This document shows positions 20,405-64,000 of a stretch of DNA of 64,000 nucleotides, piece after piece. The notes beneath the pieces were generated by a model. That model was not told the origin of the DNA, did not search any database, and worked only from the letters and a program-made list of their open reading frames with translations. The stretch's first letter is position 1. Each line of letters starts with the position of its first letter. The translations under genes were made by a program, and so were the position numbers. This DNA is from Bacillota bacterium (GTDB lineage Bacteria; Bacillota; Negativicutes; CTSoil-072): the NCBI GenBank assembly GCA_017889545.1, contig JAGFZV010000015.1, positions 1 to 64,000 of the forward strand, read 5' to 3'.

Positions 20405-20710
20405 GATCTAAACCTCCTTTTCGACATCAAAAACAACCGCTCCCTATATCTCCATGCTAAAGCATTTTCCGTAAGATAGCAACGACTGTTGCACATAGAA
20501 ATACGGCGATAAATGACTAAAAAGAAAGTAAACCATGCTTTTTATCGCAAAATTACTTATTTGAATTTTCAGAATATAGTATAACTATTTTACCGTTTCG
20601 TTTCTCTATTATTGTTTCAGTTGGTACCCATGTGGTTTGTGCAGGAAAATCATTGACAAGAGGCGAACGATGGGCAATAGCATTCATCTTTGGGAGGAGC
20701 GGAACTTATC
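20405..20710. other. 306-nt gap without a recognised feature
   Basis: This divergent region between the coiled-coil protein (-) and the ABC exporter (+) is A/T-rich. TTGACA occurs at 20654-20659, but no good -10 follows at the right distance. I see no hairpin, repeat or ORF worth naming. Confidence 0.5.
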
Positions 20711-22495
20711 ATGTCAAATAAAAGTCCGGATTGGACGTTCTCGCTGGGTCTTATCTGGAGTTTTCTCCGTAGACACCCCATACGCTTAAGCATCGGTCTT
20801 GCCGCGTTGCTGATTGCATCAGGAAGTCTGCTCTCCATACCAAAGGTTCTGGGATATTTCATTGATCAGAATTTTGCGGAAGGAAACTCGGGTTCCTTAC
20901 ATCTTGCAGCAGGAATTATGGTGGCGGTCATCACCCTCTATGCTGTAACTGCGGCCCTTCGGATTTACATGCTGTCTTGGGTCGGCGAACGGTTGGTGGC
21001 GGATATCCGCTCCCACGTCTACAACCGGCTTTTGGGTCTGCCGGTTGAATTCTTTGAAACTCATCCAATCGGCGATTTATTATCCAGGCTTTCTTCCGAT
21101 GTTGCTTTATTGGAAACCATGGTCAGCATCGTCATCCCCATCGGTCTGCGCTCAACCATCCAACTAATCGGCGCTTTCTTGTTAATGGCTTCTATCGATT
21201 GGCAGCTGACGGGAATCATTCTTTTCGTCGGACCATTCTTGGCATGGGTAGCCTTGATTTTGGGTCGAAAAGTGCGCACAACAGCCCGTTTTTCCCGCGA
21301 AGGCGAAGCGAAGGTGGTCACGCAGATTGAAGCGACACTGAACGCGATAACCACAGTCAAATCCTTCTCAGCGGAAAAAAATGAAGCGGATCGTTTTACA
21401 ACAGTAAGCGAAGCGAATTTTAACGCCGGCGAAAAACTGATGCGGGCCAGAGCTCTCTTCACATTCATCGTCTTTTTTTTCGCCCTGAACGTCGCCGTAT
21501 TGGTTCTTTATTTCGGCGGTCGCAAGGTTCTGGACAATACAATAAGTTGGAGTATGGTGACCCAGTTTATCATCTATGTATCGGTCGCGGCATTCAGTTT
21601 CGCCGGACTCTCGGAAATCTTCAGCGAAATAAAAAAGACACTCGGCGCCACCGAACGTCTTTTCCAAATTCTTGGCCAGCCGCTGGAAAGCGGAAGAACT
21701 GTCCCGCCGCTACCAATTCCCCCGGGGAAAGGATCCGTTGTTTTTGATACGGTTAATTTTTCCTATCCTGCCCGGCCACTGCAGCCGGCGTTACGCGATT
21801 TTCACCTGTCAATACAACCGGGAGAAATGATCGCATTGGTCGGTCCTTCCGGCGCGGGTAAAACCACCGTGCTTCGATTGCTGCTTCGGCTATATGACCC
21901 GCAAACAGGCTGTATCACTTTGGACGGTGTAGATTTACGCGATTTGGAGCCTAGCGATCTCCGCCGCCAGATTGCGATCGTCAGCCAGGAACCAGCAATC
22001 TTTTCCGGAACAATTCGGGATAATATTCTCTACGGCAACCCTGAAGCGACCGAAAAACAGCTTCTTGAGGCTTCCCGACTGGCTCAAGCCCATGAATTTA
22101 TTATCAGACTGCCTTTGGGGTATGATACCCCTCTCGGCGAAAAAGGGCAGCTGCTTTCCACCGGACAGCGTCAACGGCTGGCAATCGCCCGTGCTTTGGT
22201 TCGTCAGCCCCGGATGCTGCTCTTGGACGAGGCCACTTCCGCCATGGATTCAGAAAACGAAATGCTGCTGCGAAAGACCTTCACTCAGCATCTCCGCGGA
22301 CGAACCATGATCATCGTTGCTCATCGACTGGCAACGGTGCAATCCGCTGATCGGGTAGTGGTAATCGATGACGGCCATATCGAAGGACAGGGATCTCATT
22401 TTAACCTTCTTGAAACCTGCCCGCTTTATGCTCGGCTCGTCGCCATGGAATTTGACCAAATCAGTTCCGCCGCTCATTCAATTAACGCCATTTAG
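20711..22495 (+). CDS. ABC exporter, fused permease-ATPase (MsbA/MdlB type)
   Basis: A 594-residue half-transporter with six helices in the first 320 residues and a C-terminal ATPase: Walker A GPSGAGKTT (about residue 382), signature LSTGQRQRLAIARAL, Walker B LLLDEATSAMDSE and H-loop VAHRLAT. GGGAGGAG precedes the ATG. It works as a homodimer to export lipids, drugs or peptides. Its stop overlaps by 14 nt the end of the convergent ATP-grasp ligase gene, so it may export that ligase's product, but this rests only on position. Confidence 0.92.
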   Translation: MSNKSPDWTFSLGLIWSFLRRHPIRLSIGLAALLIASGSLLSIPKVLGYFIDQNFAEGNSGSLHLAAGIMVAVITLYAVTAALRIYMLSWVGERLVADIRSHVYNRLLGLPVEFFETHPIGDLLSRLSSDVALLETMVSIVIPIGLRSTIQLIGAFLLMASIDWQLTGIILFVGPFLAWVALILGRKVRTTARFSREGEAKVVTQIEATLNAITTVKSFSAEKNEADRFTTVSEANFNAGEKLMRARALFTFIVFFFALNVAVLVLYFGGRKVLDNTISWSMVTQFIIYVSVAAFSFAGLSEIFSEIKKTLGATERLFQILGQPLESGRTVPPLPIPPGKGSVVFDTVNFSYPARPLQPALRDFHLSIQPGEMIALVGPSGAGKTTVLRLLLRLYDPQTGCITLDGVDLRDLEPSDLRRQIAIVSQEPAIFSGTIRDNILYGNPEATEKQLLEASRLAQAHEFIIRLPLGYDTPLGEKGQLLSTGQRQRLAIARALVRQPRMLLLDEATSAMDSENEMLLRKTFTQHLRGRTMIIVAHRLATVQSADRVVVIDDGHIEGQGSHFNLLETCPLYARLVAMEFDQISSAAHSINAI

Positions 22496-23444
22496 GACGC
22501 GGACAGCTCATTACCGGAGTTCGCGGGTCGATTTCATAAAGAATTTTGGCCATCAGCCCATTTTTGTTGTCCGGATCAAGCCAGCCCCACTCGCCGGAAA
22601 AGTTTGCCTCAAGGAATGTATAGTGAGAATCTTTCTTCAGAAAATCCAGCCGCGCATAATGCACCCCTACCTCAGCGGCGAAAGAAAAAATCGCCTTTTC
22701 CATTTCTGCTGGCAACTTTACAGGCTTCCAGCCCCGGTGGGCATGCGCAGAGGGAGCTTTGCGCCAATCAATCGTTTCATTAATGAATGCTTGGCGATCA
22801 AGTGAAAAAGCAAAGAGCTCATCCCTTACCAGAGCTACAGTGACATCTTCATCAGCGTCAATATAATCAGTAAGGAACCACGGATGGGAAGGATCCAAAC
22901 TGCCCTCATCCACTTTGCGCGCGTAAAAGCCAATCCCGTCTGCGTACTTGAAGGTAAAACTTTTGGCAACGGACTGAATTCCAGGTCGAAAAAACCTCTC
23001 ACTCCCTACCGCGAAGCGGAAAGGGGTAACGTCGAAAAATTTAGCAGCGAGTCTCATCTGCTGCATCTTGCACGAACGAGTGGTTGCAAAAGGCTGACTG
23101 AGCACGACTTTGCCCTGTTCCCAATAAATATTCAAAATATCATTCAACGCCATCCAGACCTCTTCTTCAGCGTATCGGTCGGCATTATCCAACTGCATAG
23201 AAGGAAAGATATTGGAAGCGCGCATGGAGGAACGCCGGAATACCTTGACGAGGTCGTTCTCAGTTACACGCCTGCCGATGGGATCTTCGATCTCGATCGT
23301 CTGATCTGAAACCAAAAGTTTGTAATCCTTCCACAAATCCGTATTATAACGGAAGATATTCTCCGACCCCAAATTTTTAACCAGCAAATCAGCAACATAG
23401 TCGATTGAATTCGTTAACAATAGTGTAACGCCTTGCTTACTCAA
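22482..23444 (-). CDS. ATP-grasp ligase, graspetide-maturase-like
   Basis: About 320 residues. The N-terminus (GVTLLLTNSIDYVADLLVKN, then YNTD) resembles peptide-modifying ATP-grasp ligases of the MvdC/MvdD/PsnB kind. The C-terminal half has the ATP-grasp metal site: YARLDF, then FLEANFSGEWGWLD (Asp, Glu and Asn ligands). Such enzymes make ester or amide links between acidic and Ser/Thr/Lys side chains of a precursor peptide. TTG at 23444, 9 nt after GGGGAGG, is the best start, because longer frames begin inside the upstream terminator. A short acidic peptide gene precedes it. A YheC/D-like coat protein is the main alternative. Confidence 0.75.
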   Translation of the reverse strand: MSKQGVTLLLTNSIDYVADLLVKNLGSENIFRYNTDLWKDYKLLVSDQTIEIEDPIGRRVTENDLVKVFRRSSMRASNIFPSMQLDNADRYAEEEVWMALNDILNIYWEQGKVVLSQPFATTRSCKMQQMRLAAKFFDVTPFRFAVGSERFFRPGIQSVAKSFTFKYADGIGFYARKVDEGSLDPSHPWFLTDYIDADEDVTVALVRDELFAFSLDRQAFINETIDWRKAPSAHAHRGWKPVKLPAEMEKAIFSFAAEVGVHYARLDFLKKDSHYTFLEANFSGEWGWLDPDNKNGLMAKILYEIDPRTPVMSCPRPKWR

Positions 23445-23492
23445 TTTTAGAAGCCTCCCCTGTCTCTCTTTACAAACTTGACCAGTCGATAA

Positions 23493-23534
23493 AAAACCCA
23501 TCTTGTGGCATATTTATGCCTTAAGATGGGTTTT
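23493..23534 (-). terminator. Hairpin between peptide and ATP-grasp genes
   Basis: A 12-bp stem (AAAACCCATCTT and AAGATGGGTTTT) with an inner GGCAT/ATGCC hairpin is followed by TTTTTTA on the minus strand. Placed between a short peptide gene and its putative modifying enzyme, it would let peptide mRNA exceed enzyme mRNA. Confidence 0.8.
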
Positions 23535-23548
23535 GCAACCGTTATTGG

Positions 23549-23779
23549 CTATTCGTCTTTTTCACCATCAAATTGTGTGCTGCTAGTCGGTGCACCTGTG
23601 CTCATGAGCATATCATAGATTGTTTCACTCTCATCCCAATGCCGCACTTGGTTCACATAATCATACCGGCAGTTGCCCATCTCCTGTCGCCACAAACAAG
23701 CCTCATCCGGTTTTGAAGCGACTAGATCGGCCGGAGTGATTTTGGGTCCTGGAGATTGTGTAATGCTTTCAGTCAACAT
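23549..23779 (-). CDS. Short acidic peptide, candidate ATP-grasp substrate
   Basis: About 76 residues from ATG 23779; an ATG at 23815 (88 residues) is also possible, and both have weak ribosome sites. The start at 23872 is unlikely because it lies at or before the predicted transcript start. The C-terminus is Ser/Thr- and Asp/Glu-rich (MSTGAPTSSTQFDGEKDE), which suits ester-forming graspetide chemistry. The middle has two Cys (DEACLWRQEMGNCRYDY). No known leader motif was recognised. The case rests on position, a dedicated promoter and the attenuator-like hairpin before the ligase gene. Confidence 0.6.
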   Translation of the reverse strand: MLTESITQSPGPKITPADLVASKPDEACLWRQEMGNCRYDYVNQVRHWDESETIYDMLMSTGAPTSSTQFDGEKDE

Positions 23780-23901: not shown

Positions 23902-24045
23902 TCAGTTTTTGCAGAAAATTACAAACATTAACCCTGCAATTGCCAATACCAAACAAAGCGCTGTTATTCCCCACCGGATCATCCAATTCGGTTTTTTCGC
24001 CAAAATCTTGGCAAGTTCTGCTCTCGTTGCATCTTCACTCATCAT
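23902..24045 (-). CDS. 47-residue membrane stub resembling an HlyD-adaptor N-terminus
   Basis: A short gene starting with ATG at 24045, overlapping the stop of the C39 ABC exporter, with AGGGAG upstream. The product begins MMSEDATRAELAKILAKKPN, then WMIRWGITAL and one membrane helix, ending FCKN. It recalls the N-terminal anchor of HlyD-type adaptors that follow bacteriocin ABC genes (charged stretch, P-x-W, RWGI, helix). A normal adaptor has about 350 further residues, absent here: a promoter begins within 20 nt. It may be a decayed adaptor or a small accessory protein. Confidence 0.65.
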   Translation of the reverse strand: MMSEDATRAELAKILAKKPNWMIRWGITALCLVLAIAGLMFVIFCKN

Positions 24046-26231
24046 TCGCTCCCTAATTCCAATTGGTTTTTCACCAAATTGAAATACACGCCTTTTTTTG
24101 TGATTAATCCGGCGTGCGTTCCGGTTTCAACGACAACCCCTTCATCCAGGACAACAATTTGGTCAGCATTTCTCACCGTACTTAAGCGGTGAGCGACAAT
24201 AACAACGGTTCGATTCTTAAAAAACAAATCTAAATTTTTCATAATCATCGCTTCGTTGCATGCATCTAATGAATTGGTGGCTTCATCAAAAAACAAATAT
24301 TCCGGATTTTTATACACTGCTCTTGCAATCAGGATCCGTTGCTTTTGCCCTTGACTTAATCCCTGTCCGTCTGAACCAATCAGTGTTTGATAACCCAAGG
24401 GCAAAGAATTAATAAATTCAGCAATGTTGGCAACTTGGGCTGCCTGCTTCAACCGGTTCTCATCAATCATTTCATCTTTTAATGCAATGTTTCCGGCAAT
24501 CGTATCCGAAAAAATATACCCGTCCTGCATGACTAACCCGCATTTGTTTCGCCATGAACTGCGCAAAATGTCTGTCATAGGGATGTTGCCGATCCATAAA
24601 TCACCGCCAGTAGGCCGGTAAACTCCCAGCAAGAGCTTAAGAAGCGTTGTTTTCCCACTCCCGCTAGTGCCTACAATTGCTGTTATTTTTTTATTGGGCA
24701 ACACAATAGACACGTTTTTTATAACCTCTGGGGAATACGGACCGCCATATTGAAACGATACATTAGAAATAACAATGTCCGCTTCTTTCGGTATATCCGT
24801 CTTCTTTATTTCACCGGCATGTTCTTCCTCTTGCATAGCATGAATTTCTTCAATCCGTTCGAAACTAATCTTAGCATCCTGCGCACCAGCGACAAAATGC
24901 ACCAATTGTTCAATCGGGCCGTTTAGTTGCCCGAGAATAAACAAGATGGCAAGCATCATTCCCAAAGTAATATCGCCTTCAATAACAGAACGGGCTGCAA
25001 AATACGTAATCACAATATTTTGCGTTTCCTGTAATAAGAAACATCCTGCCTGTTGGTTTTGTGTCAGCGACAAGTATTTTTTGCTGATCGAGAACAAATC
25101 ATCCTGTATTTTTACCCAATCGGTGATTTTTTTCTTTTCACAGTTGTGGAGCCGAATTTCCTGCATTCCCATAATTAACTGGATAATCATGTTTTGATTT
25201 TTGCCAAGTTGTCTAAATTTGGCAAAATCGATTTCTCTTCGTTTGGCAAGAAACAATTGGATCCAGCACAAATACAAAATCGTCCCGGCGCAAAAAATCA
25301 AAAATATTGGAAAACTATAAGCAACAAGTACAATGCCAAAAATAATGAAGTTAATCAACGTGAGAAGAATACTCAAAACCGTATCGGTGATAAAAGTTTC
25401 TACCCGTCGATGATCATTGATGCGCTGCAAGGTATCACCAATCATTTTTACATCAAAAAAGCCCAGGGGGAGCTTCATTAATTTGAGTAAAAAATCATAG
25501 ACAAGAGTAATATTTACCGGCGTGCTGATGTAAAACAAGATCCAGCCTCTGATAAAGCTGACAAACGTCCGGCTGGCAATCAACAAAAACTGTCCGAGTA
25601 AGACCATTTGCAAAAGTCCGATATCTTTCCCATTGATCCCTTTGTCCACAATGATCTGGGTAAGAAATGGCAAAATCAGTTGAAGCAACCCGCCAAGCAG
25701 CATGGCCAATACAAGCTGAATAAATAATTGTTTGTATGACTTTAAATAGGAGAATAAAATAAAGAAACTTTTCGGAGAAGTTCCGTCTTCTTGTTGTGTA
25801 TCAAATTCATCGGCAGGCTCCAGCAAAAGAGCATACCCCTCATCGCCTGAAACTGCCCAATGCGATAAAAAGGTTTCTCTTTGATACCTTCTTTTGCCGC
25901 AAGCAGGATCAGCTAGATAAATCTGATCGTTTTTAATCTTATAAACAACGACAAAATGGCTATTGTCCCAATGAACGATACAAGGTAATTTCGCCCCGGC
26001 TTCCAGGTAGTTCATCGACACCAAGGCACACTTGGCCCGCATGCCGGCTGAAACAGCAGCATCACGCAAGCCAAGCAATGAGGCGCCTTCTCTTGAAACA
26101 TAACTTCTTTCACGAAAATATTGCAGCGAATACGATTTCCCATAGTGTTTTGTTATCATGCGCAAGCAGGCCGGACCGCAATCCATCGCATCGTGTTGTT
26201 TATAAATAGGGAAATCGCTTTTAAAAATCAT
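24042..26231 (-). CDS. C39-peptidase ABC exporter (leader-cleaving bacteriocin type)
   Basis: A 729-residue transporter. The N-terminal C39 Cys protease (about residues 1-135) has the catalytic Cys in HDAMDCGPACLRM, the His in HFVVVYKI and Asp in DPACG; it cuts leaders after Gly-Gly. Six membrane helices follow, then an ATPase with Walker A GTSGSGKTT, signature LSQGQKQRILIARAV and FFDEATNSLD. It overlaps the end of the radical SAM gene by 11 nt. It should cleave and export the peptide encoded at 27930-28103, whose leader ends IKGG. Confidence 0.93.
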   Translation of the reverse strand: MIFKSDFPIYKQHDAMDCGPACLRMITKHYGKSYSLQYFRERSYVSREGASLLGLRDAAVSAGMRAKCALVSMNYLEAGAKLPCIVHWDNSHFVVVYKIKNDQIYLADPACGKRRYQRETFLSHWAVSGDEGYALLLEPADEFDTQQEDGTSPKSFFILFSYLKSYKQLFIQLVLAMLLGGLLQLILPFLTQIIVDKGINGKDIGLLQMVLLGQFLLIASRTFVSFIRGWILFYISTPVNITLVYDFLLKLMKLPLGFFDVKMIGDTLQRINDHRRVETFITDTVLSILLTLINFIIFGIVLVAYSFPIFLIFCAGTILYLCWIQLFLAKRREIDFAKFRQLGKNQNMIIQLIMGMQEIRLHNCEKKKITDWVKIQDDLFSISKKYLSLTQNQQAGCFLLQETQNIVITYFAARSVIEGDITLGMMLAILFILGQLNGPIEQLVHFVAGAQDAKISFERIEEIHAMQEEEHAGEIKKTDIPKEADIVISNVSFQYGGPYSPEVIKNVSIVLPNKKITAIVGTSGSGKTTLLKLLLGVYRPTGGDLWIGNIPMTDILRSSWRNKCGLVMQDGYIFSDTIAGNIALKDEMIDENRLKQAAQVANIAEFINSLPLGYQTLIGSDGQGLSQGQKQRILIARAVYKNPEYLFFDEATNSLDACNEAMIMKNLDLFFKNRTVVIVAHRLSTVRNADQIVVLDEGVVVETGTHAGLITKKGVYFNLVKNQLELGSE

Positions 26232-27837
26232 TGATATCAATTATTCCAATATATTTTTCCGGATCATTCCGATGGGCAAAAATCTTCTTCAGCAGGTCCG
26301 GATGTTCTAAAGAAAAATGAATAAAACATAAGAAATCATAAGTTGTGCGTAAGCGGAATAAATCGCATTCCTGTTTTGCCGGATTGAAAAAATGATGATC
26401 CGCCATCCTACTGGCGGCACAAACGCTGCAAAAATTTACATTCCAGCAGTTCTTGCATTCATCATTATTAATGGATTGATTATATTGCTGATTCAAATCA
26501 ATTAACTTTTCATAATCCAAGCCTGAATCGCAGTCACCGATCGGCATCGAACCATCAACTTTATGACAAATCAAAAAATCGCCATTGGCGGCAAGCATCA
26601 AATTATCGAATCCCATAGGACAAGTAAGCAAAATCTGTAATGCATCCTTCCCTGCCGGATGATCGTAATTGAGTTTGGCAAACGAAAATAGATTGGCAAA
26701 ATCTTCTATTTTGATGCTCTGATCCTGAGCTGCTTCGAAAGCCTTTTTTTTGAAATTCGCCAGCCTTTTGTTCATCGAATTACGATAATCATAAACTGTT
26801 TCTTGTGAATTAGCGACAAACGTCCCTGTGTATTCCGCAGGAAAATGCTGACACAGGAGAGCGCCGATATTGCGGGTAAAATCCGTACATTTGTCATAAT
26901 CATGTTGATTTGTGTATACACCAAAAATAGAAACCTGTTCTTTGAAATACGTTTCATTGAACTCTTTGATTTTTAACAAATTATGATATGCAGTGTGAAA
27001 GGTGCCTTCGCCATTTGCAAAAACCCTGCATTTATCATGTTCTTCTGCCGGTCCGTCCAGGCTGGCAAATAAAAATACCCGGTTATCTACCAAAAAATTC
27101 AGTATCTCATCGTTCATGATCGACAAATTTGTGTTGGAAGTAAACTTCAGATTACTTTCGTTTATGGAATATCGATCCCAAGGCAGGTTTTTAAAATAGT
27201 TTGTACTTTTTTTGATCAGCTCAAAATTCAAAAATGGTTCGCCGCCATACCACGAAAGGCTTGGAGGAACGATTTTCAACAATAACTTCTTTTTTTCTGC
27301 GGATAATTTTTCAAAAAACGCAATATATTTATTGAAATAATAATGAATTCCTTTATATGCATTTTCTTCGCTTAATTTGTGCTTCGCGTGGCTATTTGCA
27401 ATGGTCCTTTTGCAATATGTACACCTGTAATTGCAATCTTCGGTAACTTCCATGCAAAATTTTCGCAATAAAATATTTTCATCATAGTACATTAACTGGT
27501 TCTTTATTACGTTTCTGTCTATAGGTGATATCTCCTTAACCGGTCCCTTAATAAACACCCCTGAAGATTTTAACGCTTCGAATTTGTCTAGCAAGAGCGT
27601 AATGGTCTTTTCAGCAAACGAAACAGCATGTATTTCTAAAATTTCCTCTTTGGGTTTTCCGCTTAAAAAATCAACGAGCACTTCCATCTCTTCATTCGAT
27701 AAAATAAAAACAAAATGCGGTTTTGCATCATAAACAAGAAGCTCATTTCCGTATGGAAATAGCTTAATCAACGGGTATTCTTTCTCGAAGAAAGCGACAA
27801 CATTCTTTTTTATCCTATGACCATTCGCAGAATCCAT
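26221..27837 (-). CDS. Radical SAM/SPASM peptide maturase
   Basis: A 538-residue enzyme. An N-terminal region of about 125 residues may bind the leader. The radical SAM cluster motif is CNYRCTYC (about residue 135), followed by SWYGGEPFLNFEL. The C-terminal SPASM domain has Cys at CPMGFDNLML, CHKVD, CKNCWNVNFCSVCAAS and a late Cys in KQECDLF, enough for two auxiliary 4Fe-4S clusters. Enzymes of this architecture form thioether (sactionine/ranthionine) or C-C links in Cys-rich peptides. It resembles maturases of Cys-rich Clostridial peptides, but the subfamily is not verified. Confidence 0.92.
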   Translation of the reverse strand: MDSANGHRIKKNVVAFFEKEYPLIKLFPYGNELLVYDAKPHFVFILSNEEMEVLVDFLSGKPKEEILEIHAVSFAEKTITLLLDKFEALKSSGVFIKGPVKEISPIDRNVIKNQLMYYDENILLRKFCMEVTEDCNYRCTYCKRTIANSHAKHKLSEENAYKGIHYYFNKYIAFFEKLSAEKKKLLLKIVPPSLSWYGGEPFLNFELIKKSTNYFKNLPWDRYSINESNLKFTSNTNLSIMNDEILNFLVDNRVFLFASLDGPAEEHDKCRVFANGEGTFHTAYHNLLKIKEFNETYFKEQVSIFGVYTNQHDYDKCTDFTRNIGALLCQHFPAEYTGTFVANSQETVYDYRNSMNKRLANFKKKAFEAAQDQSIKIEDFANLFSFAKLNYDHPAGKDALQILLTCPMGFDNLMLAANGDFLICHKVDGSMPIGDCDSGLDYEKLIDLNQQYNQSINNDECKNCWNVNFCSVCAASRMADHHFFNPAKQECDLFRLRTTYDFLCFIHFSLEHPDLLKKIFAHRNDPEKYIGIIDINDF

Positions 27838-27880
27838 TGGAAAAACTCCTTGCTTGCTTATGAATTAGTGAAGAAAAACA

Positions 27881-27924
27881 TTCTCATACCTATATCCATC
27901 CCATGTAAAATATAGGTATGAGAA
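27881..27924 (-). terminator. Attenuator hairpin after the Cys-rich precursor gene
   Basis: Arms TTCTCATACCTATA and TATAGGTATGAGAA pair over 14 bp with a 16-nt loop, followed on the minus strand by TGTTTTT. It separates the precursor gene from the radical SAM gene and would favour short precursor transcripts. Confidence 0.75.
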
Positions 27925-27929
27925 AAAAA

Positions 27930-28103
27930 TCAATGGCCAACAAACGTATTCAAAGTTGTTGAATCTTTTTCACTGGTCGAAGTGGCCGACGACGTGTTTG
28001 ATTGGGCGCAGGAACAGGAACAAGAACAGCTGCAAGATTTTCCTCCTTTGATTGAATTTGCATTTTCCGTGCTAATCTCAATAACCCGCTTTAGTTTATC
28101 CAT
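27930..28103 (-). CDS. RiPP precursor peptide with Ser-Cys repeat core
   Basis: A 57-residue precursor. ATG at 28103 has AGGAGG 8 nt upstream. The leader (about 21 residues, MDKLKRVIEI then ENANSIKGG) ends in a Gly-Gly site for the C39 exporter. The core starts KSCSCSCSCSCAQS, five Cys alternating with Ser, then a Ser/Thr-rich tail ending NTFVGH. The neighbouring radical SAM/SPASM enzyme probably links the Cys sulfurs to carbon centres. The strictly alternating CS block is unlike the spaced Cys of common sactipeptides or SCIFF peptides. Confidence 0.88.
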   Translation of the reverse strand: MDKLKRVIEISTENANSIKGGKSCSCSCSCSCAQSNTSSATSTSEKDSTTLNTFVGH

Positions 28104-28149
28104 TATTTTCACCTCCTCTATCTATCGCAATCACATATTATTTTCTAAA

Positions 28150-28178
28150 TTATTAACTAACTTTCATTCGAGTTTCAA
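28150..28178 (-). promoter_or_regulatory. Probable promoter of the Cys-rich RiPP operon
   Basis: On the minus strand TTGAAA (28178-28173), 17 nt and TAATAA (28155-28150) lie about 45 bp upstream of the precursor start, after the terminator of the preceding operon. Confidence 0.5.
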
Positions 28179-53947: not shown

Positions 53948-54247
53948 TCAAAACTGAAATTCCATCGTCAATTCATAAGAATATTGTTCATCAAGTATGC
54001 GAGAATAATCCGCCTGAAGATTAACAAATGCGGGAACCTTAAGACGTCCGGCAACATTCATATTGCTTTTTGCATCATTCGAAAGATTAATGATTAATGT
54101 GTCCACCCCATCATAAGCACCGCAAAATTGTTTTGCTCTGCATTCCGCTGCTAACACATAGGTATAAGCAGCAAAATAAAATCTTTTCCTAGATGTAATT
54201 TTTAAGACTTGCCTTCTCTTCAAACTTGCTCTGCAAGAATTCATCAT
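53948..54247 (-). CDS. Small hypothetical protein, last gene of the island operon
   Basis: A 99-residue protein whose ATG overlaps the TAA of the TPR-cold-shock gene (TAATG), so translation is coupled. The N-terminus is basic and Cys-containing (NSCRASLKRRQVLKITSRKR); the rest is mixed (TLIINLSNDAKSNMNVAGRL). No family recognised. Confidence 0.6.
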   Translation of the reverse strand: MMNSCRASLKRRQVLKITSRKRFYFAAYTYVLAAECRAKQFCGAYDGVDTLIINLSNDAKSNMNVAGRLKVPAFVNLQADYSRILDEQYSYELTMEFQF

Positions 54248-55563
54248 TACAGAACTTTAATATGCACTGCATTCATTACAGGTATATTTTTCTTTCTGTC
54301 AAATCCTGGTTCAAGATAAAAACTGACCTTTACCCCTTCTTTTATCTTGTTTCGATCGCTCACTATCGAACTTACGTTAAAATAGAAGCTTTCGCCATTA
54401 TCTTGGCAAATAAAACCCTTTCTCCCTTCCGCAATCAATTTGATAACTTTTCCATATTTACAATTTTCCTTGGGATAAATATAATCCGACCATAACGGCT
54501 TAAGTTCTCGTATCATAGATGCCAAAGAAGAAGCTTCGTCAAGAGAATCACCTGCTGTTTCTATAAGACTAATCAACTCCGGTTTGATCACTCGACCACT
54601 ATCGCGATAAATTATGCAAACTAATTTAGCATGCCGAATAGCGGCTTCCTTTTCTTCTATTTTAAGCAAAATTTTTATCATCAATTCATACATATGAATT
54701 TTTTTGTCTGGTTCACCAAAAGCCAATGCACCCGAAGCACAATACAAAAGTGACTGTTCAAATTGTTGCTGTTGAAACAAAATTTCAGCAATTTCTTTAT
54801 AAATAAACCAGTCTTTTTTTATTAATAACAATTGATTGAGTATTTCTATTGCTTCGTCAAATCGATTCAATCCATGGAGAGTTTTTGCCCGATACCAACG
54901 CAGCCAAAAATCCCTATCATTATGAAAATCTGTAATTACAGAAAAAGCTTCACTAATTTGATTGCAGCATGATTGATACTGTTCCAATTCATAAAGACAT
55001 TTGACAATCATACTATAATATCTTTCCAATTCAGATCCTACTGTTTTTGACGTTCCATCCTCAGCCTTCCAAAAATATGCTTCTTTATTTAAAAGATCAA
55101 TATTTAGCCGATCAGCCCACTCTAATGCTTGCTTAAAATTTCCGCTCGGTTGAGTGATTAATAATTTCATTATCTGTAAAACAGCCTTGCTGTAAGGCGA
55201 ATATTTTCCTTGTTCACATATATTAATTATTTTGGTCGCGGCGCTTAAAATAGAATTTGAAACTTTTTCACTTGATTTTATATGGACATCATATAAACTC
55301 CACGCAAACTCGTTGCGAACATACTGATCCATATCTTTATTTTTTTCAAATGACTCAAAAAATGCGACAGCCTCAGATGCTTGTCCTGTTTTACGTAAAA
55401 CCTTTCCATAACTTCTTGCCTGGAACGAACTAAACATTTGTTCGATTTCTTTGTTTTCACTCAAATACTCATGGTATTTTTTCATTGCCTCTTCATACTT
55501 TTGCGTTTTCTCTAGTTCTACCGCTTCTTGCAATACTCTGGTTATATCTTGATCACCCATCAT
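54247..55563 (-). CDS. TPR-repeat protein with C-terminal cold-shock-like domain
   Basis: A 438-residue protein. Residues about 1-360 form helical TPR-like repeats (ELEKTQKYEEAMKKYHEYL, then LNRFDEAIEILNQLL). The last 70 residues look like a cold-shock/OB nucleic-acid domain: YGKVIKLIAEGRKGFICQ, then ESFYFNVSSI, matching the usual G-x-x-K-G-F-I and F-F-H-x-S-x-I pattern except that Asn replaces the typical His. It probably binds RNA or single-stranded DNA and a protein partner. It overlaps the upstream stop (TGATG). Confidence 0.78.
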   Translation of the reverse strand: MMGDQDITRVLQEAVELEKTQKYEEAMKKYHEYLSENKEIEQMFSSFQARSYGKVLRKTGQASEAVAFFESFEKNKDMDQYVRNEFAWSLYDVHIKSSEKVSNSILSAATKIINICEQGKYSPYSKAVLQIMKLLITQPSGNFKQALEWADRLNIDLLNKEAYFWKAEDGTSKTVGSELERYYSMIVKCLYELEQYQSCCNQISEAFSVITDFHNDRDFWLRWYRAKTLHGLNRFDEAIEILNQLLLIKKDWFIYKEIAEILFQQQQFEQSLLYCASGALAFGEPDKKIHMYELMIKILLKIEEKEAAIRHAKLVCIIYRDSGRVIKPELISLIETAGDSLDEASSLASMIRELKPLWSDYIYPKENCKYGKVIKLIAEGRKGFICQDNGESFYFNVSSIVSDRNKIKEGVKVSFYLEPGFDRKKNIPVMNAVHIKVL

Positions 55564-56978
55564 CAAGCCTCCTCAAAAATCTTCATCATATCTGACAAAA
55601 TATGCTCTGAAGTGCTCATTCCAAGTTGACCAATCCTTCTAGTTGGTCGGCCAAGTCCGTTAAAATATTGATCAACAACACCTGTATTATGTTTTGAGTC
55701 GCGAATTATATATCGTTGCATGTATGGAAACCTTCTAATTTCTTCAATAGTAAAATTCATTCGTTTTGCTCTCTCTTGAAATTCCGGATCAATTAATGGA
55801 GCATTTACTGGTGCTGATTCGTGAATACATTTACCAATTAAATTCTCCCTCAACCCATTAATATCCGAGAATATATTACCTTGATCCAACGTTTTCACAT
55901 TAGATACTAAACCATTTTTTTTATAAAAAACATCGATACGTTCAATATGATTATTACTGAAAACTGTGTATCGATTACAATATTGTAATGACTCTAACGA
56001 TCTTATTACTATTGGCCAATTCGTACTTTGCTGCCTCATGAATTTTGTCACCCAATCTTCTCGTTGACAAATGATAAACTTACTTTTGGTTTTATTTTTT
56101 TGCATCAAATGATCACTGCCATCGAAAATAGAGTTTAATATTGTGGGATATACAAAGTTTGGTCTATATTCAAAGCGTTCTTCTATGCTTTTCAATAATA
56201 CAGTCCCAAGCTCAGTTCCTTCGACAATAGATACACACTCACGCAACGCTTCATTTGTCTTTGAATAATCCAAGTCGCAAAGAAGAAACAATGCTCCAAA
56301 TCGCAAAGATTTAAAAATTTCGGCAAAAGAAAATGATGCTTTACTACCTCGTCGGTCACGCTCGCCGATGATATCCGAAATACAATTTTGCATAACTACT
56401 AAATCAGCTTCACCCAAAACTTGTTTACATACTTTCTCTTGACATATTTCACAAGAAAGAAAGTCACAATGATGTTCTGATAACATCATTTTTATGTTTC
56501 CGTATTTTTCCAATAATTTTACTGTGCAACCGTGACGATATTTTTTCCAAACGTTGTCATTAATATCAAAAACGCTCACCTTTAATTTTTCTACTCTTGG
56601 ATAACGCTTTTTGACATGGCTTGCAATACCTAATAATTCAGGCATTGGCCCGCCACCAAGTATGACTATGTTCATTATGTTGTCTTCCCGCAGAATCGGC
56701 AGTGACTTTAATTCTGCTAATTCTTCAAGCAAATGATAAAGAGTTTCAACATAATACGGAAAATAAGCTAACATATAAGCTTTAGCATTATCATTCTCAT
56801 AATCCGTTCGAGGTACGTTCTGGGAATAATCCTGTCGTAAAGATCTCACTAATTCTCGATCTTGCGTTAAATACTTTTGATAATCGTTGTCTGTCACATC
56901 AGGATACAGAAATGGAATAATAATGCGATAAGGATCGTGTATTGAAAAATCCGACAAATTGTCCAGCCCCCTTGCCAT
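55563..56978 (-). CDS. Rossmann/methyltransferase-like protein of unknown role
   Basis: A 471-residue protein. Around residues 100-150 is a Rossmann-like nucleotide site (NIVILGGGPMPELLGIASHV, then VSVFDINDNVW) like class I SAM-dependent methyltransferases. A Cys/His-rich stretch follows (HHCDFLSCEICQEKVCKQ, about 168-190) that could bind zinc, then VVMQNCISDI. The C-terminal 200 residues are unrecognised. It starts 1 nt after the DUF1848 stop. Substrate unknown. Confidence 0.6.
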   Translation of the reverse strand: MARGLDNLSDFSIHDPYRIIIPFLYPDVTDNDYQKYLTQDRELVRSLRQDYSQNVPRTDYENDNAKAYMLAYFPYYVETLYHLLEELAELKSLPILREDNIMNIVILGGGPMPELLGIASHVKKRYPRVEKLKVSVFDINDNVWKKYRHGCTVKLLEKYGNIKMMLSEHHCDFLSCEICQEKVCKQVLGEADLVVMQNCISDIIGERDRRGSKASFSFAEIFKSLRFGALFLLCDLDYSKTNEALRECVSIVEGTELGTVLLKSIEERFEYRPNFVYPTILNSIFDGSDHLMQKNKTKSKFIICQREDWVTKFMRQQSTNWPIVIRSLESLQYCNRYTVFSNNHIERIDVFYKKNGLVSNVKTLDQGNIFSDINGLRENLIGKCIHESAPVNAPLIDPEFQERAKRMNFTIEEIRRFPYMQRYIIRDSKHNTGVVDQYFNGLGRPTRRIGQLGMSTSEHILSDMMKIFEEA

Positions 56979-56979
56979 A

Positions 56980-57939
56980 TTAGAAAAGTGTTCCTTGGTT
57001 TATTTGTTTCGAAAGTTTTTTCTTTTTTTTCGTTTCAGTTGACGGGACTGCATCGAAATATCCTAACAATGACGGTGATTCGGGATTATGCAGTTGCATA
57101 TTTTTAATTCCGCATGGCAAAGTACCTGCATAGCAGTATGCACAGCCATGCTGACAGGTATCATAATGTCCAATATCCTTACTTTTGATACAACCACACT
57201 CAATTCGTTGCGTATTATCCTTTTTTTCATTAATGACTATACCGAAATGCTTCTGAATATAGTCATCATCAATACATTTTCCATGTTGCACACCACAGTC
57301 CATCAAATCAAACGGTTCAGCACAACTGAAAATTTCCATACTATTTTCCCGTGCTATTTCTGCTATATTTTTGATCAAAAAACCAATTGCCGCAGCATCA
57401 ACAATATTTTCAACGTATATTCCTTGTTCTTTTAACCTTTTAAAATGTGCACTTGCTTTTCGATAATCGTCAACGAGACTGATAATATTTCGTTCGGTAT
57501 ACCCCTTAAGTGTTGCAGCAATTTCTGCATAACGTTTCAAATGATATGCTTCATCGGTTCTATTGCTGATGATTATTGGATCATATCGCCATACAACCAA
57601 ACCAGATGGCAACGCCTCTGACAATTTTTGAAAGGTTTCACATGAACGCTCCCAATTTGGCAGATTTGGTTCAAACCATCTGTCATAACCTGTAAGAGTA
57701 TACTGAAAATAGAATTTAAAGCCTCTATCATTCAATTCATTCAAATGCGGCATCAACGGCTTTGGGTTTTTTGTCCAAAATACAATAATATCTACATCTT
57801 CTGGCTTCAAGGATATATAGGAAACTTGTTTGCGGTTAAATGGATTAACTGCAGTACAATATCCGGCACGAATGCGATTCATGAACCATTCGCTAAAAAA
57901 TGCAGGTATATCTGTTCTACGGCTTGCACTAATAATCAA
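56980..57939 (-). CDS. DUF1848 radical-SAM-like protein
   Basis: A 319-residue DUF1848 protein: ISASRRTDIPAFFSEWF at the start, NPFNRKQVSYISL, IVFWTKNPKPL and RYDPI. Near the C-terminus CGCIKSKDIGHYDTCQHGCAY carries the Cys pattern thought to bind a 4Fe-4S cluster, a permuted radical SAM arrangement. The start is TTG at 57939, with GAGGTG 6 nt upstream. Its place in an operon with a large ATPase suggests a modification step in that system; the substrate is unknown. Confidence 0.85.
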   Translation of the reverse strand: MIISASRRTDIPAFFSEWFMNRIRAGYCTAVNPFNRKQVSYISLKPEDVDIIVFWTKNPKPLMPHLNELNDRGFKFYFQYTLTGYDRWFEPNLPNWERSCETFQKLSEALPSGLVVWRYDPIIISNRTDEAYHLKRYAEIAATLKGYTERNIISLVDDYRKASAHFKRLKEQGIYVENIVDAAAIGFLIKNIAEIARENSMEIFSCAEPFDLMDCGVQHGKCIDDDYIQKHFGIVINEKKDNTQRIECGCIKSKDIGHYDTCQHGCAYCYAGTLPCGIKNMQLHNPESPSLLGYFDAVPSTETKKKKKLSKQINQGTLF

Positions 57940-58025
57940 TATTCACACCTCGCTTTCAGCCACTATATTAACTAATTGCAAATATAATTCATACGCGATT
58001 TATTAATTTACCGCTTCAATATACG

Positions 58026-59324
58026 TTATAGTAGCAATCGTGCTTTGGCTTGATATTCCTTAATAAATTTAGCATATATAAAATAATCAATCGTTTGATA
58101 ATGCGCCAACTTATTGCGGATTGATCTCGCCTGCATGATTAAAGAAAGCAACGAATTTTGTTTCCGGAATGCGTGGACAGTCTTGAATATGTATTCCAAA
58201 TACCCCCATTCACAAGCTAAGGGACTTTCTTGCAATTCTGTCGTTTGTATGTTAGATGGAGTGCAATATCGTGTATGCCAATTATCACCATATTCAGAAG
58301 TCATTTTTTCACATATGTGAATCCGCAATGAGTCAATTACCGGCAGGAGTAATTTTGCTTGCTCGCGCCAAAATCTATGGCGAATTTCATTTTTCCATCC
58401 CAATACAGCAATTGCTGCCAAATGAATCTCTGCACCGTTTTCTGGCGTCCATGATACAATCCCTTTACTCCAAAGTTCCCGCAATTTAGGAGGAGGCATA
58501 AGTGGCGAAATCGAATCGGTCGCTATCGTTTTTATACTTCGACAAAACGTTTCATCTATGCCCCACTTTTTCAATATTTCTTCTTTCCATGACCTTTTAT
58601 GAGCATATTCAATCAAACGAGTTTCAATCGCCTCCATAGGCTCATACAGAGCTTCCAAAATAAAGCTTCCAAAATCGACATCATTACCAATAATACCCGG
58701 TACAATACTCTCAACCCATTGAGCTTGTAATTTTCCTTCAGTTGCACCATTTTCAATACATGCTCTGCATAAACATTGCGTCTCGAGTGTTGAAGGGATC
58801 CCCCACCACCAGCGCAATGAAAGTGATGGTCCTGGATTGGGAATGTTCTGAAAAAAACGCATCGCCGGAATAGCGGTAAAAAACAGCGTTGATCGAGCTC
58901 CCGCATCATGTGACGTTTTAATCTGCTGCACCCACTGATCAAGCATCTTTATCCAGTTTCGAGCAATGCCGTCTTCTAATGTCTCCAACCCTTCCAAAAT
59001 AATTACTTCAGGCAAGCCGTCACTATTCAGCAAATTGCCTATTGTTCGTTCTTTTCCTTGCTCCCATGTAATTTGCAATCTTTGTCCAAGAGCATCTGCT
59101 AAAGACAGTGATTCTTCAATTTCTGACACATCTACCTTTTCAACAATAAACTCCTTACGATACAACGCATTAAAAACATGAGAAGAAATATGCATGCGAT
59201 CTATTTCTTCTGTTAACAACAAAAAAACGTTACGACCGTCACAAATATCTTCAATAACGGAATCAATAATTTTATGTACCGATGCCGATCCGTAGAACAA
59301 AGAGAGAATACTTACTGTATTCAT
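58026..59324 (-). CDS. ATPase-like partner of the giant ATPase
   Basis: A 432-residue protein. The first 160 residues look like an NTPase fold (NVFLLLTEEIDRM, VIILEGLETLEDG as a Walker-B-like strand, then STLFFTAIP) but lack a Walker A loop, so ATP turnover is doubtful. A CLCRAC motif lies near 190; the C-terminal half is helical. Its ATG overlaps the stop of the giant ATPase gene (ATGA), which points to a stoichiometric complex. No family recognised. Confidence 0.55.
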   Translation of the reverse strand: MNTVSILSLFYGSASVHKIIDSVIEDICDGRNVFLLLTEEIDRMHISSHVFNALYRKEFIVEKVDVSEIEESLSLADALGQRLQITWEQGKERTIGNLLNSDGLPEVIILEGLETLEDGIARNWIKMLDQWVQQIKTSHDAGARSTLFFTAIPAMRFFQNIPNPGPSLSLRWWWGIPSTLETQCLCRACIENGATEGKLQAQWVESIVPGIIGNDVDFGSFILEALYEPMEAIETRLIEYAHKRSWKEEILKKWGIDETFCRSIKTIATDSISPLMPPPKLRELWSKGIVSWTPENGAEIHLAAIAVLGWKNEIRHRFWREQAKLLLPVIDSLRIHICEKMTSEYGDNWHTRYCTPSNIQTTELQESPLACEWGYLEYIFKTVHAFRKQNSLLSLIMQARSIRNKLAHYQTIDYFIYAKFIKEYQAKARLLL

Positions 59325-62300
59325 GGCACCCATAACCTGCCTAATATAGGATCAAGACAAATAGTTCCATCAAGATTATCTTCTACTATGTTCATGATCC
59401 GTAAATATTGCATCGCATTGTCTACTTCTACTGCTGTTAATGCCGGTTGTCCGAGAAATTCACTAAAGTCTTCCTCCGTTAACAAATCCGCAGGCACGAA
59501 ATGTTCCTCATTAAAAAATTTAATTAATCTTTCTATTCTCTGATCCTCGCACGCATGCATTTGACAAAACTTCAACTTATCTTCTGCATTGGCAAAAAGT
59601 TGCGTTGCCAATGGACGCAAATCATCCTGCTTCCTGCCTTGATTAAATAAATGCTCTAATAGAATTGTCCAACCGTTTGTAGCGTCCAATATTTTCTTAC
59701 ACACATCTTCCGAATGTAGTTTGTTTTGTTGATTGAGCCGCTCTTGTACGGCAAATTTACTCCACCGTCTGAGTGATACAATTGCTGAAACTCTATTCTC
59801 TAATCCTTCGCGGCGATATTTGGGTATTTGCAACCATTTCCATACAGCCAATGGTTGCAAAGTGAAAATAATCCTTGTTGACTGCCGTTTTCTACGATAT
59901 GCCTGTAAAAGATCACAAGCAGCCTCAACTAGTTTCGTTGGAGAATCTTCAATTCCATCCAATTCTTTGTAAATAATGACTCTCTCATACTGGTCATGTT
60001 TTTTCAAATAATCTTCAAGCCAGCGTGAAAATTTAGAAGCTGAAATAATTGTCTTGGGAACACTTTTAAATACGCCGAGTCTTTCTTTAAGCAATGTATC
60101 TGGCAGCATTCGTTTTACGGCATCTTCAACCATTGAGACTCCCAGCGCAGGTGACCCAAATATTAATTGAACACCAAAAGGATTTTGATTAATCAATCGT
60201 TCTTGCGCTTGGGTAAAAGGACTATACTGTTTCCCAACGCAATCAACAGGAGCATGAAGTCCATCGGCACTCAGGTAATCATTTTGCAACTTTAATGAAT
60301 CGAGTTCCAATAAGCGCAGTTCGATATCGTCCTTTTTGCCCATCATACGAACAACATTGGGACTTCTCAAACGATAATAGCCATCACTGTTTTTCAGCAA
60401 GACTCCCAGTCCGCACATCTCGTCCATAAGGCCTCGGAATTCATCAATCGGTACACTTTCAAAAGCAGACCGCCACCAGTACCGGACTAACCCCAAAACT
60501 TGAGCTGTTGAATACGTGTTGGCAAAATTGGCACCCGATTCAAATTGATCATGGATCATGCTCCAAGCAATAGCCTGGTACCTTTTGTCCAATGCTAATG
60601 TCCAATCAAACCGTTCCTTAAATCGTTCTCTTAACTCCGGCACCCTGTACACTGCTTCGACTTCTAAACGATCAATTACATAAGGTGGCTCATCTTTGCC
60701 CAACCGTGAGCTATTCATCCGTTTCAACAATTGCTGGCAAAATAATTGGATTAATCCCGGATGATAATTCGTATACGAAAGGATATTTAAAATAACAGAA
60801 GGATCCTTAAAGCAAAACCCTAAACTTTCAAAGGGTTTTTTGATCAATTGCTGTGCCGCATCTGGTTCTAATGGTCCAACACAAATCGGCGCTCCAAAAT
60901 GGGCTAAAGGCTGATTGCCATCGCTTTGGAAACGTTGAACACTATGCAACCCAGCAAAAACAACTTTGAAACGATGTCCCATTTCTTGCGTCAAAATACG
61001 TAATTGATCTACCACTTTGTAATTAGATCGACGATCAGCATCAAGAAAATTATCTGCCTCATCAAACAACAATAGAATTCTGGCATTGCGGGCGTTATCC
61101 ATTCTAGCACGAATCGTATTGATCAATTCTTCGATGTTGCTCGGACGCATATTCGTAGTTTCCAGCAATTCAAAACGCACAAAAGAATCCCATATTTTGA
61201 CCCAAAGCAACTCTGTGTCCAAGTTGGTTTTGGGGTCTCCAAGCAACTTTATATCCTCCACATAGGCATACTGCTCCATGCCGGGACTATGAAATTCACG
61301 TTGAACATGTCTAAGCAGCGCCGATTTTCCTAATTGGCGTCCACCATACAATAGGCAACTTCCTTCAGGCCGTTGTAAGCTTTTGGCCATTTCTCTACGC
61401 CCAAAAAACATCTCTGGCGGGACATCTCCAGCTTGAAAAGGAGTATACGGGTTTAACGTCGCAAAAGGCAGAGTACAACGGAAGAATTGAGACAATCGAT
61501 TTCTTTTATCCAATAGAAACGCTAACAAACTTTCGTCTAATACCGCAATTGCCAAGCTTCTTTCCCGACTCGCGTGGCGTAATTGACCACGAGCTCTAAT
61601 TTTGAGTCGTCCCAGATAAAAGACTATTACATTATGATTGTCAAGGCGCAGATCTCTCAACCATCCCGTAATAGTATCGGCACTCGGTCTTTCCCATAAA
61701 CAAATAACATCAACATATTCCTTTTGATAAGTACCGAATTGGGGAACAGGCGAATGGCCTCCTGCTGACATTTTGACTTGTGTGTGCAGCCAATGATCGC
61801 CTTTTTGAACGGTACTGACTATTTCCTTATCCTCTCCTGGCAAAACATTAAATCCCAAATAACTTACAATATCCCGGATCAACCGGTTCGTATTTCGACC
61901 TCCAACACCATCGCCCTTGAGAATTCGCCATGATTCTATGCCCCGCAACGCTCCATCCCTAAGGGGTTTTGGTATTTGAGAAAAATTCATGCCTAGCCAA
62001 CTGCGTTCTTGGCGAATTGCGCTGATTAATTTAGAAAAGCCACTAGTACTCAGTTCCTCAGTAATCAGACCTAATTGGTCAAGAAAATCTTTCAAGGTAA
62101 CGTCATCGGGTTCATGCAAAAAAGAGAAACTCGTTTCATCTATTTCTTTGCCCGTTTCAATCAATTCTGTTAATCGATCAAAACATTCCTGCACAGTCCT
62201 TGTATCTCGACGCTTTAAAGAGTTTTCTACAAAATCCACAATTCGCTTTTGTAAGTTAATTCCCATTTGCAAATTGTCAATTTGTAACTTTAAACTGATC

Positions 62301-64000
62301 CATTCCCCATTTAATTCGTTAATTCGTCGATTTCTGTCTGCTTCTAAACAATCCTTTACCTTTCGCAACTCAGACATAGCTTTCGCAAAATTAAGGTTGC
62401 TGGATTCCCGGTGCGCTTCCACAATCGCAAAATAGTCATTACGTTCTTCACTAATGATCCCATCAACCGTGGCTTGTTCAATATCTTGTTCAGTCGATGT
62501 AACTTCAGCCAATAAGAGCGCATTACATCCGGCTTTACGAGCTTCAACCTGTGTCACTATCTCAGCATCTTCCGGAATAAGTCGTAATAAGGAATCAATA
62601 AAACGAAAATCTTTGCTATCCATCCACCCAATTATAGCTTCTTGTACATTTCTGTTTGAGTTGGCTAAAATGATGGAAGCAATTTTCTTATTTTGCTCTA
62701 ACGATGCCTCTCCTTGATCATTCAGGTCTAATTCATATAAATAATATAGCCGCTGACGCAATTCGCTGAACAAATCCTCTGTTGTGTTGCTGGCATCCAC
62801 TGAAAAAAAAGCATCTGAGTTGACATTTTTCATTCCAAGCATCCTGCAGCATGAAGCAATAGACATTTGCAAGCACTCGGTTGCTTGTGTTAACCCTTGC
62901 TCCCCACCGTCAACAACTTCTTTCAATGAATTTAATATATCTGGCGCCTTTGCTTCAAAATCTTTTCGCAATTCACTGATCTGTTCAACCACCCAATCAC
63001 GGCCTGTTTCAAGCCTTTTTTGTTCTCTCTCCACCAAATCGCACCAGTGTTCAATTCGCATGATTGCTTCACGAATCGTCCTCAGCAACTGTTCTCTCGG
63101 TTTCCCCATTATAAGCGACCGCTTTTTAAAACTTTTCTTTGCATCAATTGCATCCACAATTGCATCCACATGATGGGCTTCTTTCCATAGCGAAATTTCT
63201 CGACGCACATCTGGAATAGATGACCTATCATCCATAATAGCTTTGTTTAATAATACCTGTAATTTGCCTTGATGACCAAGCAATTCACTCCACACGTCAC
63301 TACAACGTTTTATGGCCAATTTTTTTGAATGTGACTGTTCCAGCCAAGCCTGTATATCCTTCACAATATCTTTTATGACCATATCTTGTTCACCAATGCC
63401 AGCAGCGCCAAGAAAATCTTCTTCACGCAAACCTCGGACTCTTGAAGCAAAATTTTTAATGGTTTGGACCAAATCATGTGTAAACGGTAACAAGCTGGGT
63501 GTTTGAATCCACGCCAACATTCCAGACTCAGGCGCAATTAATGAGCAACGGATGGCAACTGCTAACATCAGGATTTCTTGATATTCATTTGCATCGGTTG
63601 TTGAAGTGCGGTGTGTAATGTCTAATAGATCATGAACTAATCCTTGGTTTTGTTGCGTTAAAATGCCAGATCCATATAGAGCGGCGACTACCAACGGGTC
63701 AACTGAACGATCGATATAATTTGTTTTCAAAGAAAGAGATAACCAATAGGCCACGGCAAAATCTTGCTTTTGTATTAATTGCCAAAACAGATCTTCCATT
63801 TTTTCTAAATTTAAGTTTTCTTCTTGCTTTGCAATTTCCTGTGTATTAATTGGGTTAGTCCCCGAAACTTCTGTTTCATCGAACGCGATTTTATTTTCTT
63901 CCTCTTGCATCTTTTTAGGGGTGAGCACAATTTCGCCTAACAATTCTTCTTCAAGCGGCTGATCTAAATCATTAGATTCGCTTTGGTCAATGATATTTTC
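59321..64000 (-). CDS. Giant STAND/AAA-like ATPase, 5' end outside the window
   Basis: At least 1,559 residues; the frame stays open to the window edge. Counting from the edge, the first 650 residues are helical. A region at about 710-820 (VSYLGFNVLPGEDKEI, then HTQVKMS) has a nuclease-like look. The ATPase follows, with Walker A GGRQLGKSA near 887 and Walker B LLLFDEADNFLD near 975, then a winged-helix-like part. At about 1,320-1,480 lies a second, degenerate NTPase unit (LIFGSPALGVSMV, RVIIYKELDG). The layout recalls signal-transducing ATPases of bacterial conflict systems. Exact family not recognised. Confidence 0.7.
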   Translation of the reverse strand, partial: ENIIDQSESNDLDQPLEEELLGEIVLTPKKMQEEENKIAFDETEVSGTNPINTQEIAKQEENLNLEKMEDLFWQLIQKQDFAVAYWLSLSLKTNYIDRSVDPLVVAALYGSGILTQQNQGLVHDLLDITHRTSTTDANEYQEILMLAVAIRCSLIAPESGMLAWIQTPSLLPFTHDLVQTIKNFASRVRGLREEDFLGAAGIGEQDMVIKDIVKDIQAWLEQSHSKKLAIKRCSDVWSELLGHQGKLQVLLNKAIMDDRSSIPDVRREISLWKEAHHVDAIVDAIDAKKSFKKRSLIMGKPREQLLRTIREAIMRIEHWCDLVEREQKRLETGRDWVVEQISELRKDFEAKAPDILNSLKEVVDGGEQGLTQATECLQMSIASCCRMLGMKNVNSDAFFSVDASNTTEDLFSELRQRLYYLYELDLNDQGEASLEQNKKIASIILANSNRNVQEAIIGWMDSKDFRFIDSLLRLIPEDAEIVTQVEARKAGCNALLLAEVTSTEQDIEQATVDGIISEERNDYFAIVEAHRESSNLNFAKAMSELRKVKDCLEADRNRRINELNGEWISLKLQIDNLQMGINLQKRIVDFVENSLKRRDTRTVQECFDRLTELIETGKEIDETSFSFLHEPDDVTLKDFLDQLGLITEELSTSGFSKLISAIRQERSWLGMNFSQIPKPLRDGALRGIESWRILKGDGVGGRNTNRLIRDIVSYLGFNVLPGEDKEIVSTVQKGDHWLHTQVKMSAGGHSPVPQFGTYQKEYVDVICLWERPSADTITGWLRDLRLDNHNVIVFYLGRLKIRARGQLRHASRERSLAIAVLDESLLAFLLDKRNRLSQFFRCTLPFATLNPYTPFQAGDVPPEMFFGRREMAKSLQRPEGSCLLYGGRQLGKSALLRHVQREFHSPGMEQYAYVEDIKLLGDPKTNLDTELLWVKIWDSFVRFELLETTNMRPSNIEELINTIRARMDNARNARILLLFDEADNFLDADRRSNYKVVDQLRILTQEMGHRFKVVFAGLHSVQRFQSDGNQPLAHFGAPICVGPLEPDAAQQLIKKPFESLGFCFKDPSVILNILSYTNYHPGLIQLFCQQLLKRMNSSRLGKDEPPYVIDRLEVEAVYRVPELRERFKERFDWTLALDKRYQAIAWSMIHDQFESGANFANTYSTAQVLGLVRYWWRSAFESVPIDEFRGLMDEMCGLGVLLKNSDGYYRLRSPNVVRMMGKKDDIELRLLELDSLKLQNDYLSADGLHAPVDCVGKQYSPFTQAQERLINQNPFGVQLIFGSPALGVSMVEDAVKRMLPDTLLKERLGVFKSVPKTIISASKFSRWLEDYLKKHDQYERVIIYKELDGIEDSPTKLVEAACDLLQAYRRKRQSTRIIFTLQPLAVWKWLQIPKYRREGLENRVSAIVSLRRWSKFAVQERLNQQNKLHSEDVCKKILDATNGWTILLEHLFNQGRKQDDLRPLATQLFANAEDKLKFCQMHACEDQRIERLIKFFNEEHFVPADLLTEEDFSEFLGQPALTAVEVDNAMQYLRIMNIVEDNLDGTICLDPILGRLWVP

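Follow-up and report, generated by a model that had tools for sequence, protein, structure and literature searches.

A radical S-adenosylmethionine (SAM) gene cluster in a 64,000-nt stretch of DNA from a Bacillota bacterium (contig JAGFZV010000015.1, positions 1 to 64,000, hereinafter the window) in our judgement probably, though by no means certainly, encodes a new family of thioether-containing ribosomally synthesized and post-translationally modified peptides (RiPPs), in which a strand of Cys residues would be cross-linked to a polar tail as a nested hairpin. A first-pass annotation of the window had reported an open reading frame with a Gly-Gly (GG) leader and five Cys alternating with Ser, next to genes for a radical SAM/SPASM enzyme and a C39-peptidase ABC exporter. 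The reading frame, the leader, and the alternating block are all present where it placed them, and family searches of both neighbouring proteins support their assignment. A small leader-bearing precursor beside a SPASM enzyme with intact cluster ligands identifies the locus, as far as gene content can, as a radical SAM RiPP cluster.

Precursor peptide and its conserved core

The precursor and the two parts of its core map as follows:

27930-28103, minus strand: precursor peptide, 57 amino acids, leader MDKLKRVIEISTENANSIKGG followed by core KSCSCSCSCSCAQSNTSSATSTSEKDSTTLNTFVGH; homologous precursors in 14 further genomes
28008-28037, minus strand: alternating (Ser-Cys)5 block, core residues 2-11, with mixed codons; the Cys spacing is kept in all relatives
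27933-28007, minus strand: Ser/Thr/Asp-rich tail, core residues 12-36, with an LNTFVG-like C-terminal end; proposed acceptor strand

The start codon is the ATG at 28103, preceded by AGGAGGTG. A six-frame translation of the window contains the pattern CxCxCxCxC a single time, and none of 60 shuffled versions of the window contains it. The Ser codons of the block are, in order, TCT, AGC, TCT, TCC, and TCC, and the Cys codons TGC, TGT, TGT, TGT, and TGC; because both are mixed, the block is not a nucleotide repeat. An origin by repeat slippage is ruled out by these mixed codons together with conservation in other genomes.

A homologous precursor lies immediately upstream of a homologous maturase in 14 other genomes, and the Cys block is therefore conserved. 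Maturase homologs thus stand beside a conserved precursor family, and not beside unrelated precursors only, the outcome that the first-pass annotation had named beforehand as fatal to its proposal. Specifically, family members have GG, two residues (three in loci L017 and L021), and then three to five Cys, each separated from the next by one residue (S, D, N, T, or E), with an insertion in L021. The search for relatives with a Ser-Cys block thus bears out the block but finds Ser in only part of the family, and Ser is not the defining partner of Cys that it had been taken for: relatives have CDCSCDCTC, CDCECECTC, CNCSCSCSC, and even CTCSC. Judged from the precursor sequences, alternation with Ser is a special case of a broader every-second-Cys rule. 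The two four-Cys precursors of L014 (1040-1240) and L017 (1929-2126) have a longer leader, which in L014 contains a duplicated segment (VTEICEESAESVKD / VTEISEKTADAIRGG).

The polar tail ends in LNTF, LNVF, LSTY, or ASTF, followed in most members by A/V and G/S. With the exception of L021, every five-Cys member has an aromatic residue at position 33 of the core; in the seven cores checked, residues 20, 22, 24, 26, and 28 are always S, T, N, D, or E. Tail length increases with Cys number, from 16 residues with three Cys to 19 with four and 24-34 with five (Spearman 0.74, 15 related rows).

In all 18 pairs compared, conservation is higher across the core, including the tail, than across the leader, and synonymous divergence is high in most of them. 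Many bacteriocins show the opposite conservation of core and leader. Because the core is so strongly conserved, its sequence suggests a fixed role, as a signal or in a metal or surface function, and not a diversifying bacteriocin.

Maturase and exporter

The two large genes of the cluster, which overlap by 20 bases, are:

26221-27837, minus strand: radical SAM/SPASM maturase, 538 amino acids, with an N-terminus like a RiPP recognition element (RRE; about residues 20-92), a CX3CX2C motif, and SPASM Cys
24042-26240, minus strand: Peptidase C39-ABC exporter, 732 amino acids, with Peptidase_C39, ABC membrane, and ABC ATPase domains

The CX3CX2C motif of the maturase (C135, C139, C142) and its seven SPASM Cys (C406, C424, C461, C464, C470, C473, C491) are invariant among nine aligned relatives, and the spacing of the SPASM Cys agrees with that of RumMC2 as given in PMC8188230. 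In the predicted model of the maturase, the N-terminus shows the beta3-alpha3 arrangement characteristic of an RRE, and a 75-column stretch of the model matches the leader-binding domain of TbiB1 (5v1u); as modelled, the N-terminus would constitute a leader-binding (RRE) domain. CteB is both the top PDB sequence match and the best fold match of the model (E 3e-15), followed in the latter case by anSME, TigE, and ChlB. The exporter, judged by its family, would cleave after GG and export the product.

The best NCBIfam matches of the maturase are all thioether maturases, namely CcpM, RumMC, lachnocin, and SCIFF. It nevertheless falls far below every curated NCBIfam cut-off, with 171.3 against 500 bits for the best, CcpM (TIGR04068), 121.8 against 720 for RumMC (NF035951), and 101.6 against 425 for SCIFF (TIGR03974). 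Assignment to a known family was rejected, as no NCBIfam, Pfam, or PDB entry fits past the general enzyme class. The same genome has a separate canonical SCIFF precursor and maturase (L002, 1450-3101, contig 40; TGGCGECQTSCQSACKTSCTVGNQACQK), which serve as an internal control.

Relatives and their distribution

Of 380 genomes of the window's class, 5 carry the maturase, as do 6 of 183 from the class of genome G382; it also occurs at 10 loci of a GTDB contig collection and, in a draw of 297 genomes around the phylum of G380, in G380 only. All loci of sufficient length have the order precursor-maturase-exporter, with the exporter homolog immediately 3' of the maturase wherever the contig extends far enough. 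In a fifteenth related genome (L012; G316 contig 141), the contig stops within the maturase and the precursor is not visible; the exporter frame of L012 is split into pieces, perhaps by an assembly error. Two Synergistota genomes (L040 = G557 and L041 = G556) have a maturase 37% and an exporter 25% identical to those of the window. Their core KTCDCECECTCSMDSVTDDTMTSTRDSNMLSTFAS is recognisably the same peptide, with Asp/Glu between the Cys and a nearly unchanged tail; the locus of G557 is on a contig of 1.88 Mb.

The hosts are labelled Bacillota, Clostridia, Synergistaceae, Deltaproteobacteria, Chlorobiaceae, and Acholeplasmataceae; most are metagenome-assembled genomes, and some labels are doubtful, as is probably the case for 'Acholeplasmataceae', because those contigs carry SLH-type outer-membrane proteins. 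The differently labelled hosts are mixed in the tree, and G+C content is 36-39% across the maturase and exporter of the window versus 42-51% for the surrounding genes; horizontal transfer of the cluster fits both observations. A mobile plasmid or phage origin was considered and rejected, with only general relatives at about 22-29% identity among the matches listed.

Proposed cross-linking of the core

By analogy, thioether formation would be the most likely chemistry for this cluster, given the known reactions of SPASM thioether enzymes, the identity of the maturase's closest named relatives, and a core rich in Cys. In the proposed pathway, the RRE-like domain of the SPASM enzyme would bind the LKRVxEI...IKGG leader, and the enzyme would abstract hydrogen from acceptor residues and link these acceptors to the Cys sulfurs of the strand; cleavage after GG and export of the core by the C39 exporter would follow. 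In an extended strand, Cys placed at alternate residues all point to the same side, and they may therefore pair with acceptors in the polar tail, giving a nested hairpin, or thioether ladder. Since tail length tracks Cys number, the aromatic residue is fixed, and alternating tail positions are polar, a hypothetical register for five-Cys members is C11-20, C9-22, C7-24, C5-26, and C3-28, in which the acceptors of the window peptide would be T20, T22, E24, D26, and T28. The links could hypothetically attach at the alpha-, beta-, or gamma-carbon.

Several points weigh against this proposal. The tail-length trend has only two members with four Cys and one with three (L013) at its lower end, and the sequences compared are related to one another. 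Evidence for the alternating-polar register is weak: it is reached by 1.5% of per-sequence shuffles but by 20% of column-preserving shuffles. The AlphaFold prediction of the precursor is uninformative (predicted local distance difference test score of 52), and the SPASM region of the maturase model is poor. The maturase is just ~25% identical to the SCIFF maturase of its own genome.

Alternative explanations

The Cys block might instead provide free thiolates that bind soft metals (Cu, Zn, Cd, Hg) in the manner of a small metallothionein, with modification by the enzyme being limited to the tail or to one or two of the Cys. CxCxC with S, D, T, or E between the Cys is like thiolate metal sites, and a conserved rather than diversifying core would suit such a function; we nevertheless consider it unlikely, given that neither transporters nor regulators of metals are repeatedly encoded next to the cluster in the loci examined and that the nearest named relatives of the enzyme are thioether maturases. 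Cross-links could also form within the block, each Cys being joined to a directly neighbouring or nearby residue. S, D, N, T, and E are acceptor kinds used by known maturases, and streptosactin shows that small unnested rings are possible (PMC8172795). Such rings, however, would have no need for a conserved tail or for its length to track Cys number, the interleaved residues vary in Synergistota while the tail stays fixed, and links between adjacent residues would probably be strained, so that we regard this arrangement as improbable. The first-pass annotation had offered both the adjacent Ser and the Thr-rich tail as partners of Cys; the former is the less likely, and the conserved tail is favoured.

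A further explanation, compatible with the nested hairpin, places the radical SAM enzyme in one pathway with an ATP-grasp enzyme, giving a two-peptide or doubly modified product. It concerns a candidate graspetide module at 20690-23779 of the window:

23549-23779, minus strand: second candidate precursor, 76 amino acids, C-terminus STGAPTSSTQFDGEKDE / TSSTQFDGEKDE; graspetide-like, as judged from position and motif
22482-23501, minus strand: ATP-grasp ligase of the MdnB/MdnC kind, 339 amino acids; same place in L012 (77% identity) and L013 (39-40%)
20690-22495, plus strand: MsbA-like ABC exporter, oriented convergently to the ATP-grasp gene; 61% identical counterpart at this place in L012

The ATP-grasp ligase resembles MdnB and CdnC and scores below the NCBIfam cut-offs; the 76-amino-acid peptide has a 78% identical counterpart in L012 and a weaker one, with the motif TxFDxE, in L013. 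The ATP-grasp gene and its small partner adjoin the cluster in the window, L012, and L013, both enzymes are rare in the class (the ATP-grasp ligase in 3 of the 380 genomes), and two genomes have both. In Bacteroides, loci that associate ATP-grasp with SPASM enzymes have been described (PMC8939145). Most relatives, however, are without an ATP-grasp gene within the sequence examined, making that gene optional to the radical SAM cluster; and because the ATP-grasp gene has a candidate precursor of its own, formation of the radical SAM product need not depend on it. A shared pathway is possible but doubtful. The nested hairpin in its fullest form, with up to five thioether rungs forming a covalent beta-ladder that is maintained almost without change among distant anaerobes, acts there as a conserved factor outside the cell, and is in some genomes made together with a graspetide, is speculative and rather unlikely as a whole.

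Other features of the cluster and the window

Two further features belong to the cluster:

27881-27924, minus strand: intercistronic hairpin in the gap between precursor and maturase, CTCATACCTATAT/ATATAGGTATGAG
23902-24045, minus strand: single-transmembrane protein, 47 amino acids, AKKPNWMIRWGITALCLVLAIAGLMFVIF; retained after the exporter gene in some family members

A strong hairpin is present at the precursor-maturase gap in all 12 loci folded (the window and 11 others), with differing sequences. Its position following the precursor gene would suit a partial terminator or an mRNA stabiliser. Membrane proteins of the 47-amino-acid type recur behind the exporter at least in L013 (11781-11951), L015, L017, L020, and L021, and are absent from L016, L018, and L019. 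These stand-alone single-transmembrane proteins of 47-56 amino acids carry a P-x-x-x(I/V)RWG motif, and we take them to resemble the N-terminal membrane anchor of HlyD-type adaptors, minus the rest.

Elsewhere in the window, 54247-63943 contains genes for a TBP-TOTE domain protein (TOTE conflict systems), DUF1848, a DUF7017/TPR protein, and a 1540-amino-acid AAA ATPase, and looks like a conflict or defence island.

Comparison with known systems

A comparison with RiPP family models, as the first-pass annotation had proposed, leaves the peptide outside the curated families, since the maturase is below every cut-off and the window precursor reaches 15.9 bits against a cut-off of 25 for TIGR04149. 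The radical SAM systems of Bacteroidetes described by TIGR04148/TIGR04149 share the GG leader; TIGR04149 is matched weakly by 10 of 13 family precursors (best E 4.8e-5), and the enzyme model of these systems gives the maturase 99.8 bits against a cut-off of 300. The CcpM/CLI_3235 (SacP23) Cys-rich RiPPs share a Cys-rich core and, through TIGR04068, the best NCBIfam match of the maturase, but the CLI_3235 precursor model matches none of the precursors of the present family. SCIFF/CteB, a ranthipeptide system, likewise has a SPASM maturase with an RRE and two auxiliary clusters, and a small Cys-rich precursor; SCIFF precursors, however, space their Cys more widely, and a C39 exporter is linked to the cluster of the window.

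In sactipeptides the thioether joins the Cys sulfur to an alpha-carbon, and in ranthipeptides, including SCIFF, to a beta- or gamma-carbon. Both classes being defined by the carbon of the link, the cluster is placed, from its sequence, among radical SAM RiPPs and assigned to neither. No match to a characterised peptide was found, and the literature searched holds no described product with this core; most subscription papers lie outside its coverage, and an earlier description is possible. A core fixed across distant hosts points to a conserved function over bacteriocin warfare, a question for many radical SAM RiPPs.

Thurincin H-type peptides do not have their donor Cys at every second position, and the product is antibacterial. 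They nevertheless have, like the hairpin proposed here, a run of donor Cys in the N-terminal half joined in nested fashion to acceptors in the C-terminal half (PMC8172795). Ruminococcin C, the sactipeptide made by RumMC, has nested thioether hairpins with a CxC donor pair and the same SPASM Cys spacing (PMC8188230, PMC8172795). Because it contains Cys22-x-Cys24 (PMC8172795), the first-pass statement that known peptides always space their Cys more widely was too strong, although a run of three to five at every second position is indeed unusual. Ruminococcin C has two Cys per hairpin, versus up to five per run in this family. If the ladder is true, it would be the densest thioether hairpin known to us, and its simple genetics (precursor, maturase, and exporter) would allow study of how one radical SAM enzyme installs several in-register links.

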